DNA of 50,388 nt from Crocinitomicaceae bacterium (GTDB lineage Bacteria > Bacteroidota > Bacteroidia > Flavobacteriales_G > Salibacteraceae), in the NCBI GenBank assembly GCA_002713215.1, contig PAVO01000046.1:1-50388 (forward strand). Direction: 5' to 3'. The notes under the pieces were generated by a model, which had not been told where the DNA came from, did no database searches, and worked only from the letters and a program-made list of their open reading frames with translations. The position numbers and the translations under genes are program-made. Positions 40,060 to 43,264 of the stretch are shown here, in pieces. The number at the start of each line of letters is the position of its first letter. Position 1 is the stretch's first letter.

Positions 40060-41315
40060 TGAATCCTTACCTGAGTAATTATCGCTTTGGCGGGCGATTG
40101 TTCAACATTCAACCCAGGGAAAATACCCAACTTATTGTTGTAATTCCCTGCTTTAACGAGCCAGACCTAATTCCTTCTTTATCAGCATTATTGAAATGTG
40201 AAATTCCTTCTGAAATATCAGTTGAGGTAATCGTAATCATTAATGCTGGAACCCACCATTCCCAGGACATTAAGGCATTGAGTGAAGGTACTTATCAAAA
40301 GGCAGTTACCTGGGCAGAAGAGAACAATTCACAGGAGCTTCGATTTCTGATTTACCAAAACAATGAATTACCCAAAAAACACGCAGGGGTAGGGTTGGCC
40401 AGAAAGATTGGAATGGATGAGGCGGTGGATCGTTTTTCTCAAATCGATCAGGAAGAGGGAGTTATCGTTTGTTTTGATGCTGATTCACAATGCGATTCCA
40501 ATTACCTAAAGGCCATTTATACTGAGTTTAAGAATAAACCTAAAGCTCCCGGTGCTTCCATTTACTTCGAGCATCCGTTGTCGGGCAATGAGCACGATCA
40601 GCAGGTATATGATGGAATTGTGTGGTATGAGTTGTTTTTGAGGTACTATCACCAGGCATTAAAATTTACCGGACATCCACAGGCGTTTCATACGGTTGGA
40701 TCTAGTATGGCGGTAAAGGCCTGGGCCTACCAAAAGCAAAGTGGAATGAACAAAAGAAAAGCCGGTGAGGACTTCTACTTCCTGCAAAAGATTATTCAAC
40801 TTGGGGGATTTATAGAAATAAATTCAACTCGCGTAATTCCTTCTCCGCGCACCAGCGACCGCGTACCATTTGGAACAGGTCGGTCCATGCTGGAATACCT
40901 TGGTGGTGAAAGGTTGGATGTTTCCTATAGCTTCAGGTCATTTCGCGATGTAAAGCTCTTTGTTGAATTGGTAGAGATGGAATATGAAGGCCAAAAAAGG
41001 TTTGGGACCGAATTTAAATCCAGGCTTCCGGAAAGTATTTGTTCATTTCTTGAACTCAATGACTTTGATGACCGAATAAATGATATGCTTCTATATGGAA
41101 CAAGTGTCGAAACTTTCTCAAAGCGTTTTTTTAATTGGTTTAATGCATTTCGTATTTTAAAATTCATTCACCTTTGTAGGGATGAATATTACCAAAACGA
41201 TTCATTACTTGAATCATGTTCAACCTTTTTAAAAGAGATAGATTTTCAAGGAATGTTGCCAGCTGATGTTCAAATGATGTTGAAGGTTTTTCGACAGATA
41301 GATCGTAAACCCTGA
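40059..41315 (+). CDS. Family 2 glycosyltransferase-like protein
   Basis: 418 residues. GT-A-like N-terminal domain: QLIVVIPCFNEPDLIPSLSAL near residue 28, then the DxD type motif VCFDADSQCDS near residue 147. A long helical C-terminal region (about 260-418) with no membrane helix follows. The middle holds HTVGSSMAVKAWAYQKQSGMNKRKAGEDFYFL, where GEDF supplies a probable catalytic acid or base (quoted in segments: HTVGSSMAV, KRKAGEDFYFL). Probably soluble, donor and acceptor unknown. Start ATG 40059 lies in a TAATG overlap with pdxH. Confidence 0.8.
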   Translation: MNPYLSNYRFGGRLFNIQPRENTQLIVVIPCFNEPDLIPSLSALLKCEIPSEISVEVIVIINAGTHHSQDIKALSEGTYQKAVTWAEENNSQELRFLIYQNNELPKKHAGVGLARKIGMDEAVDRFSQIDQEEGVIVCFDADSQCDSNYLKAIYTEFKNKPKAPGASIYFEHPLSGNEHDQQVYDGIVWYELFLRYYHQALKFTGHPQAFHTVGSSMAVKAWAYQKQSGMNKRKAGEDFYFLQKIIQLGGFIEINSTRVIPSPRTSDRVPFGTGRSMLEYLGGERLDVSYSFRSFRDVKLFVELVEMEYEGQKRFGTEFKSRLPESICSFLELNDFDDRINDMLLYGTSVETFSKRFFNWFNAFRILKFIHLCRDEYYQNDSLLESCSTFLKEIDFQGMLPADVQMMLKVFRQIDRKP

Positions 41316-41328
41316 TTGAAACTACTCA

Positions 41329-41754
41329 TCAATCATTGCATTGCCAATTCCAATTATAGAGGCATTCGTATAGAAATTCTAAAATTTTTACCCAGTTATT
41401 CTCTTCTTGGTATTTATTCTCTTCTTGATAGTTGTAATGACCAGAAATTGGTTCATCTTCGTTATACCAATGTTCCTTCCTTCGGGCCTTATAAATAAGC
41501 TCTCCAGATTCAGAGAACACCAATAATACTATATGGAATTTTTTCTGAACTTCAACCGTATAGGTAATGTCTCCACTTTTGGTCAAGATAGTTTCTATTT
41601 TTTGTATTGAACGACTATCTGCCTCTTGTTGGATGCTAGATTGAACTAATTCAGGCAGATATTTAAACTGATTATTGCCGGAATTCTGTGCGGCGATGCT
41701 ACCAATTGTTAAAATTAGGATTGCCAAGATAAAAAATGAAGATTTAACTTTCAT
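41329..41754 (-). CDS. Small secreted protein, PepSY-like
   Basis: 141 residues. Signal peptide cleaved near SIAAQ (residue 22). Residues about 30-95 (YLPELVQSSIQQEAD, IQKIETILTKSGDITYTVEV, FSESGELIYKARR) follow the helix-strand order of PepSY-like domains of Bacteroidota, which are periplasmic. The C-terminal 45 residues are acidic and aromatic with a tandem YQEEN repeat, and end with two cysteines. Function unknown; an inhibitor or binding role is possible by family. It is convergent with the glycosyltransferase. Confidence 0.65.
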   Translation of the reverse strand: MKVKSSFFILAILILTIGSIAAQNSGNNQFKYLPELVQSSIQQEADSRSIQKIETILTKSGDITYTVEVQKKFHIVLLVFSESGELIYKARRKEHWYNEDEPISGHYNYQEENKYQEENNWVKILEFLYECLYNWNWQCND

Positions 41755-41845
41755 TAATTAGGCGCAATAATGGTGCCTAGATATAAGAGGTGTTTGAGTA
41801 CGGCTTGGTTTGCGGATTATCTAATTTAATAAAGTAAAGGCCAAA

Positions 41846-41871
41846 ACGAAAAAACGGCCCAAAGGCCGTTT
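41846..41871 (-). terminator. Terminator of the THX-like gene
   Basis: Perfect 8-bp stem AAACGGCC (41852-41859) and GGCCGTTT (41864-41871), with a T-run on the minus strand, 25 bases after the stop at 41897. Confidence 0.85.
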
Positions 41872-41896
41872 CAACATTTTATATTTCTGTACGGTT

Positions 41897-42217
41897 CTAT
41901 TTTTTAGCAGCAGCTTTTTTCGGCGTGTCGCCAGTAGCTTTACCGCGTTCGCCTGCCGGCTTTTGCGGTTGCGAAGCAGAGGCGCTAGTAGCTGTTTTTT
42001 TTGCTGGGGCTTTTTTCTTGGTGTCACTTGCAGCTGGTTTTTTCGTTGCTTCTTTTTTAGGAGCCGCAGCTTTTGCCTTTTTCTTTTCAGCTGCTGCTTT
42101 TTTAACCAAATTAGCTAGTGTTTCGGCGTTTTTCTTTTTGCTGGTTCGTTGTCTTGTTTTTCCGTATGTACCTTTAAACCGTTTTCCTTTTCCTGTCTTT
42201 TTATCTCCTTTACCCAT
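41897..42217 (-). CDS. Ribosomal protein THX domain with a histone H1-like Lys/Ala tail
   Basis: 106 residues. Residues 1-22 (MGKGDKKTGKGKRFKGTYGK plus TR) match the small 30S protein THX, which in other bacteria is usually about 25-50 residues long in total and sits in the head of the small subunit. Residues about 27-106 are a low-complexity tail of Lys and Ala with KKxAA-type repeats (AAPKKEATKKPAA, KKKAPAKKTATSAS), as in histone H1-like proteins. The tail may bind rRNA or DNA. The gene has its own terminator, lies beside HU, and its local DNA is richer in G+C because of the Ala and Lys codons. The promoter is likely TATTTTCG at 42257-42264. The role of the tail is inference. Confidence 0.75.
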   Translation of the reverse strand: MGKGDKKTGKGKRFKGTYGKTRQRTSKKKNAETLANLVKKAAAEKKKAKAAAPKKEATKKPAASDTKKKAPAKKTATSASASQPQKPAGERGKATGDTPKKAAAKK

Positions 42218-42291
42218 AGTTCAAAATTCAATTTTGATTAAACTTATTTTGAATTCCGAAAATAACTAAAATGAGCAGATGGAGTATAGGC

Positions 42292-42328
42292 AAAAAAAAA
42301 CCCTTTCAACTTTGACAGTTAAAAGGGC
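42292..42328 (-). terminator. Terminator of the HU gene
   Basis: CCCTTT-C-AACT (42301-42311) pairs with AGTT-A-AAAGGG (42317-42327), with one internal mismatch and a run of T on the minus strand. Confidence 0.8.
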
Positions 42329-42349
42329 TCAAATTTCTTTATTTAAAGT

Positions 42350-42622
42350 CTAGTTTACAGAACCAGAAAGTTCAGCACCTGCTTTAAATTTCACAACGTT
42401 CTTAGCTGCAATTTGGATTTCTTTACCAGTTTGTGGATTTCTACCAGTTCTAGCAGATCTTTTAGAAATGGAGAAAGATCCAAATCCAACTAATGCTACT
42501 CTGTCTCCTTTTTTAAGAGCTCCAGAAGTGGCTCCGATAAAAGAATCTAATGCTCTTTTTGCATCAGCTTTAGAGATACCTGCTCCATCAGCCATTGCTT
42601 CTACTAATTCAGACTTGTTCAT
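42350..42622 (-). CDS. HU family DNA-binding protein
   Basis: 90 residues, the exact HU length. It has [23 protein letters not shown] at the start (quoted as [13 protein letters not shown] and [11 protein letters not shown]), and the DNA-binding arm [24 protein letters not shown] with the intercalating Pro (RNPQTG). It bends and packages DNA in the nucleoid. It is separately transcribed, with one of the best promoters of the window and a 20-base-spaced direct repeat further upstream. Confidence 0.96.
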
Positions 42623-42666
42623 CTTGAAATTCGTTTTTTTAGTTAATAATTAAATAATTCGTGACC

Positions 42667-42696
42667 CAAATGTAGATGAAAATCAAGCCCTGTCAA
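42667..42696 (-). promoter_or_regulatory. Promoter of the HU gene
   Basis: On the minus strand TTG (42694-42696), a 19-base spacer, and TACATTTG (42667-42674). Both elements and spacing agree with the Bacteroidota consensus. The leader is about 40 bases. Confidence 0.7.
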
Positions 42697-42721
42697 GGCC
42701 TGTAGTCCAAATCAGGGCATT

Positions 42722-42752
42722 TTGTTAATAAAAGTGGTCGATTGTTAATAAA
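42722..42752. repeat. Direct repeat upstream of HU
   Basis: TTGTTAATAAA occurs at 42722-42732 and 42742-42752, exactly 20 bases apart (two helical turns), 25-55 bases upstream of the HU -33 element. It may be an operator or an AT-rich activating element. Confidence 0.5.
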
Positions 42753-42856
42753 TACGCCTGAAAAGCAAGCCAATTGGGCGTTTGAGCGTAAATAAGCGCC
42801 AATTTTGAATCTTTTTTAGCTGGCGAAACTCAAAATTAGGGTCAATTCTTAACGTT

Positions 42857-43264
42857 TTATTCCTGAATATCGACCCAAATGCGGTCGGTTCCGACAAATT
42901 CGGGAGCCTGAACGGATAAAACTTTGCTCCTTTTTCCCGTTTTGTGTTTGTAGGAGTGGATCACTCCCTCAGGTATCATTACAAAATCGCCAACTTTTAA
43001 TTCCATTTTTTTCTTCCCCATATAAAAGGTACCTCCACCTTCAAGCAGGTAGATACACTCGGTATGGGTTTTATGGTAGTGTGGCTTAACCGTATCCGAC
43101 ACCCATATAATAAAGGACGATTGATTTTTGTCTGAATTTAATTTTTCGACGGTTACATTTTCCTTAAACTCCTTGGGAGTAAACGAGTCAATGTTTGTTC
43201 TTTCCTGTGCTCCGGCATTTAAAGCGAACCATGCAATTAACGCAAGTGTATAAATGACCTTCAT
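42857..43264 (-). CDS. Secreted cupin-domain protein
   Basis: 135 residues with a signal peptide (cleavage near NAGAQ, residue 19). A single cupin barrel with motif 1 HYHKTHTECIYLLEGGGTFYMG (metal-binding HxH and E; here given as HYHKTHTECIYLLEG) and motif 2 PEGVIHSYKH. Such small periplasmic cupins are poorly characterised. The metal site looks complete. It follows fmt by 2 bases and so belongs to the MATE-fmt operon. Confidence 0.8.
   Translation of the reverse strand: MKVIYTLALIAWFALNAGAQERTNIDSFTPKEFKENVTVEKLNSDKNQSSFIIWVSDTVKPHYHKTHTECIYLLEGGGTFYMGKKKMELKVGDFVMIPEGVIHSYKHKTGKRSKVLSVQAPEFVGTDRIWVDIQE

Follow-up and report, generated by a model that had tools for sequence, protein, structure and literature searches.

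A bTHX gene of a Crocinitomicaceae genome with a lineage-typical Lys/Ala-rich tail, part of which is encoded by a dispersed DNA repeat

The bTHX locus and its HU neighbour

Within the analyzed stretch of 50,388 nucleotides (contig PAVO01000046.1 of a Crocinitomicaceae bacterium, hereafter the window), an open reading frame (ORF) with an ATG start and a TAG stop codon was observed on the minus strand at positions 41897–42217, encoding a protein of 106 amino acids. Residues 1–24 (42146–42217, minus strand) matched the NCBIfam model ribo_THX (TIGR04560), a 26-residue N-terminal profile, with 34.1 bits and hence above its curated cut-off of 26, and a profile search of the whole genome returned the same span as the only THX match. 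The corresponding Pfam model Thx (PF17070) aligned to residues 1–27 with 22.2 bits, which is below its own cut-off of 29.7. The remaining residues 27–106 (41900–42139, minus strand) constitute a basic low-complexity tail rich in Lys, Ala and Pro, in which the 80 residues following residue 26 comprise 31% Lys plus Arg and 28% Ala and carry a net charge of +19. The original prediction of a THX signature followed by about 80 Lys/Ala-rich residues was thus borne out. Its description of the tail as Lys/Ala repeats was correct regarding composition, but no tandem array was listed by Tandem Repeats Finder within 41000–43000, and residues 78–101, a stretch containing Ser, Gln, Pro and Gly, are encoded by a dispersed DNA repeat (41916–41988, minus strand).

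A made-up Lys/Ala tail query yielded no match in the source genome. Histone H1-like Lys/Ala-repeat proteins are characterized by a polybasic Lys/Ala/Pro composition, and the THX tail resembles them in this respect; no match to an H1-like family was obtained in Pfam or NCBIfam up to an E value of 1, such profiles serving low-complexity tails poorly. A single-sequence AlphaFold model of the THX protein (mean pLDDT 67.5) features residues 26–50 as its sole helix and coil for the remainder, and the tail is probably disordered. The helical segment corresponds to window positions 42068–42142 (minus strand), and a short T/S-x-E-like stretch was noticed there in several relatives (e.g., G007, G009, G011, G017, G022 and G025).

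As had been noted from the sequence, an HU gene adjoins the THX gene: an HU family DNA-binding protein is encoded at 42350–42622 (minus strand; PF00216, 112.4 bits). A consensus scan placed terminator-like hairpins 3' of HU (42298–42330, minus strand) and 3' of THX (41851–41872, minus strand). In the stretches fetched around THX genes of other genomes, an HU-like signature was found at 23 of 28 loci of the same family (own locus included), 0 of 5 at order level, 14 of 58 at class level and 0 of 20 at phylum level, the absences not being firm because the fetched stretches differ in length. HU also adjoins short THX genes (35–37 amino acids) in the class-level genomes G094, G166 and G201, and HU adjacency is therefore no marker of tail function. 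The HU–THX arrangement is a conserved neighbourhood that is uninformative about the tail.

C-terminal tails in THX proteins of related genomes

For comparison, TIGR04560 was searched in 80 genomes including the source genome (62 over the cut-off) and in 296 genomes of the phylum (55 over the cut-off), and the genes were extracted with a script; two loci (G303 and G083) fell outside the reading pattern used and were left out of the length table. Complete THX proteins of the own family (27 in total) ranged from 38 to 130 amino acids, and 25 of them were at least 65 amino acids long. The order-level set comprised five complete proteins of 53–74 amino acids, the class-level set 58 of 34–167 amino acids and the phylum-level set 20 of 31–145 amino acids. 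Since 28 of the 58 class-level and 16 of the 20 phylum-level proteins do not exceed 45 amino acids, the tail is not universal. All 25 family proteins of at least 50 amino acids carry a net-positive tail. Furthermore, among the best 80 of 211 matches of a genome-contig scan, THX lengths of 31–236 amino acids were recorded (at least 50 in 60 of the 80), and Lys/Ala/Pro-rich tails were seen not only in Flavobacteriales but in Lysobacter, Luteimonas and Stenotrophomonas as well.

The search for such tails in related genomes, which had been suggested as a check, thus revealed that they are common within the family and present in other phyla. The statement that THX proteins are normally tiny fails for the source lineage, and the fusion regarded as unusual represents the rule there. 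Based on these results, the gene is assigned to bTHX, a ribosomal protein that is here extended at its C-terminus by a Lys/Ala-rich tail typical of the lineage.

Six family genomes (G006, G010, G013, G018, G020 and G030) gave no THX match with TIGR04560, perhaps as a result of gene loss, divergence or genome incompleteness. In G368, each end of contig C1 carries a THX gene; the two genes are closely similar, with diverging tails (145 versus 117 amino acids), and perhaps represent unmerged assembly ends. Sequence relatives in the PDB are Thermus Thx (23–27 amino acids) and chloroplast or mitochondrial forms (plant organellar bTHX/bS31). In contrast to these, the window protein possesses an 80-residue Lys/Ala tail, and no tailed bacterial THX was among the PDB matches listed. 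A literature search retrieved nothing joining bTHX, ribosomal protein and Bacteroidetes.

A dispersed repeat read in one frame

Comparison of the THX protein with its own genome showed that tail residues 78–101 have counterparts in two ORFs of contig C14, encoding Rho and a gyrase/topoisomerase IV subunit A; the latter is a fragment scoring below the full-length cut-off of its model. At the DNA level, five full copies of a 73-bp element were found, residing in the THX, Rho and gyrase-A-like genes and twice on contig C29 outside evident genes. Their E values range from 2e-36 to 1e-16, with the THX gene itself ranking first and the two C14 and two C29 copies spanning 4e-26 to 1e-16. The THX copy matches either C14 copy at 68 of 73 bases, and the element encodes nearly a third of the THX tail. 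Its GC content of 0.60 compares with 0.39 for the rest of the THX gene and 0.40 for the window. Four of its six frames are open, so that a shared frame is not forced by stop codons alone. At one of the C29 copies, another frame stays open for 485 codons; this copy was counted as outside a gene because the first Met follows downstream of it. Among 35 genomes of the family, the long form was detected in the own genome and, as one weak match, in G007 (E 0.09). It did not fold better than shuffled sequences (z 0.28). Among the 20 of 24 direct repeat families and the 15 inverted pairs listed by a repeat search of the window, the element did not appear. A candidate second, degenerate copy in the THX tail was rejected, as its score of 18 of 26 was exceeded by the top one among 62 other THX genes, with 19.

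More common is the short form of the repeat, which measures about 36 bp and lacks the middle section. A pattern derived from known copies and allowing up to three mismatches located 15 sites in the own genome, the reversed pattern serving as control locating none. Thirteen of these sites lie in ORFs, and all 13 are read in the frame that yields Ser-Ala-Ser-Ala (SASA). Single copies occur in a DUF1456 protein, bS16, a DUF349 protein, SucB, TopB, bS1 and a DUF5606/DUF6852 protein, and two copies each in bL17 and in two proteins called SPOR-type, for one of which Pfam supports SPOR, with no such support found for the other. The other two sites form a tandem pair on contig C28 just after a stop codon. 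Beyond the 15 sites, another copy was found in bL21 and a second one in bS1. In total, 14 genes contain the repeat, namely eleven with the short form together with the THX, gyrase-A-like and Rho genes; five of them encode ribosomal proteins (THX, S1, S16, L17 and L21). The copies in all 14 genes are read in one frame as S-A-S-A-K/E-A-T-G-D-T-Q-K (SASAKATGDTQK) and are situated in linkers and tails of the host proteins.

The 15-site pattern fixes a spacer of three bases, and copies outside genes are consequently under-sampled by it. A second scan with spacers of one to five bases covered 1.57 Mb (31% of the genome), comprising contigs C14, C24 (less its last 899 bases), C29 and C55, chosen for known copies, C7 and C19, chosen for length, and the window. 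It returned ten sites, with none in the reversed control: eight in ORFs with a three-base spacer and two on C19 outside evident genes with a two-base spacer.

Some side observations concern similar sequences. The proteins bL21, bS16, bL17 and bS1 of the own genome possess long low-complexity extensions. The exact 15-mer CTCCGCTGAAGCTAC of the short form occurs at seven more sites (C53, two on C39, C29, C24, C17 and C14), two of which, read with their surroundings, look like another palindrome outside genes. At G628:C39:124543-124572, a long open frame reading GSTFAKASVDKG contains repeated palindromes whose arm differs (GGTGGACAAG), and bS1 of the own genome contains a similar palindrome (SASAKASADK).

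Copies within genes differ in length from most of those outside. Three bases separate GCT and GGCGACAC in all 22 ORF copies counted, among them degenerate ones and one from a repetitive open frame of G628. The spacer comprises two bases in 10 of 12 copies outside evident genes, the C28 pair being the exception, and in two further copies on C19; some of the copies counted as outside genes lie in SASA-frame stop-free runs of up to 91 codons, so that gene status is a matter of judgement. Fisher's test of the spacer split used 22:0 versus 2:10, an earlier version having used hand counts (17 and 10), and the two later two-base copies entered neither test. Two G628 variants ending GGACAAG/GGACAAAG (spacers of three and five bases) and one chance SucB match were excluded from the count. 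The extra base of the ORF copies relative to most copies outside genes suggests a derived, coding-compatible subfamily.

Moreover, at one stem position, T is accompanied by A and C by G (11:0 versus 3:6 in own copies, Fisher p = 0.002; 11:0 versus 4:16 in all tabulated copies, p = 1.6e-5); neither these p values nor that of the spacer test are strict, because the copies are related. The table was entered by hand, and both bS1 copies as well as the second one of gyrase A were omitted because the site was unreadable; the THX copy (T with C) is outside the two-by-two test and off the pattern. The association links a synonymous site to a Gln/Arg site, as a palindrome would, and it may reflect two lineages of copies. 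Folding of short-form copies gave z values of −0.1 to −2.8; a stem was predicted in several of them, with weak to modest hairpin energies.

Regarding its distribution, the stretch is present in 1 of 191 THX proteins from two overlapping sets, namely that of the window alone. For TopB, none of ten relatives contains the motif, and eight of the ten are shorter by 8–10 residues at the respective loop; in G014 and G020, the loop is long and of a different sequence. The SucB and DUF1456 sites are too variable in relatives to prove empty sites (for SucB, 12 relatives were tried, of which four fitted the pattern and were aligned with the own protein). The short form was found in 7 of 395 genomes of the class, own genome included, and in G021 it lies in the Rho linker in the same frame as the own copies. 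Related copies outside evident genes occur on C29 and C19 of the own genome as well as in G002, G389, G422 and G007. Searches of viral contigs with two exact repeat patterns and of plasmids with a composite repeat peptide gave no match, and a literature search for the peptides AKATGDT, AKATADK, AKASADK and AEATGDT found none. A full-length REP-type tyrosine transposase gene is present on contig C5 (G000:C5:143267-143500; NF047646, 100.4 bits, cut-off 80). The repeat core is absent from its 3.2-kb locus and other palindromes adjoin it; transposase and palindromes probably represent a separate REP family. Short fragments of such transposase genes occur on C7 and C30. With the C5 locus scanned, no transposase could be tied to the repeat, and no target-site duplication was defined for it.

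Origin and significance of the repeat-encoded stretch

The THX protein very probably combines a tail typical of its lineage with a stretch, residues 78–101, that stems from a short mobile-type, partly palindromic, REP/RPE-like DNA repeat inserted in frame. The complete ORF and the prevalence of tails speak for the former, and the DNA-level repeat, its shared frame, its absence from the relatives examined and the extra length of TopB, all directly observed, for the latter. Copies would have arrived by transposition or copy-paste of DNA, and only those inserted in tolerant segments and in the SASA frame would have survived. The insert may be near-neutral; the tail as a whole would be translated in full and, being polybasic, could contact rRNA loosely.

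A different reading, close to the function originally envisaged, takes the whole tail including the insert as a selected H1-like polycation tethering 30S assembly to rRNA or the nucleoid. The positive tails of all family proteins of at least 50 amino acids, conserved in composition, and the HU neighbour at most family loci would fit such a role, yet tail sequence and length vary widely within the family, nearly half of the class-level proteins (28 of 58) do not exceed 45 amino acids, HU adjoins short THX genes too, and the 24-residue insert is confined to a single THX protein of 191. We consider the tether unlikely. An artefact, i.e., misassembly, binning contamination or an untranslated tail, is very improbable: the assembly consists of 56 contigs with an estimated contamination of 4.39%, but copies are spread over many contigs, within conserved genes and with the reading frame kept, and the best matches of the TopB, SucB and DUF1456 hosts come from the family of the source genome.

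The stretch might also have spread as coding sequence between tail-coding genes, by gene conversion, template switching or small duplications, with no mobile palindrome involved. Most sampled copies indeed lie in ORFs in one frame, and the three-base spacer is lacking in most copies outside genes. Against this stand the related copies outside evident genes in five genomes, the little other DNA similarity around the copies among the tail hosts and the stem association, which make this route rather doubtful, and insertion of a mobile-type repeat is preferred.

In a review (PMC10969869), Rickettsia palindromic elements are described as short palindromic repeats of about 150 bp forming in-frame fusions to unrelated genes; such fusions are presented as unusually frequent in Rickettsia, and similar protein evolution elsewhere is posed as a question. 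Compared by these descriptions, the window repeat likewise occurs in frame in unrelated genes; unlike those elements, it measures 36–73 bp, resides in a Flavobacteriales-type genome, and is hosted by ribosomal, transcription and topology proteins, in whose tails and linkers it lies. GTAG/CGTC REPs are described as palindromes of 20–40 bp that are predominantly extragenic, with some intragenic members suggested to lie in flexible linkers, and CGTC repeats are reported in Bacteroidetes (PMC3733652). The window repeat resembles them as a short, putatively palindromic repeat with intragenic members in linkers, but neither consensus end carries a CGTC or GTAG tag (GTAG being internal only, as judged by eye on both strands), and most of its sampled copies lie in ORFs. 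Dispersed copies conserved at the DNA level, as expected of REP/RPE-type elements, were found. By analogy, the family may work like Rickettsia palindromic elements or intragenic REPs, without the tags of the latter.

We tentatively propose, as a possibility that may well prove wrong, that this Bacteroidota lineage hosts a coding-adapted REP subfamily in which one extra base relative to copies outside genes would have created the benign peptide S-A-S-A-K-A-T-G-D-T-Q-K. The subfamily would then have spread between genes, mostly reaching disordered segments (tails and linkers) of proteins of the ribosome, of transcription and of DNA topology; it would represent selfish DNA surviving by coding for harmless disorder. 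For the bTHX tail, the results provide a warning that a conspicuous low-complexity tail can derive in part from a repeat, this part not being a dedicated functional domain. A family in a Flavobacteriales-type genome that is present in 14 genes, always read in the same frame, and whose copies in ORFs differ by one base from most copies outside them, makes the question of palindrome-driven protein evolution outside Rickettsia testable.
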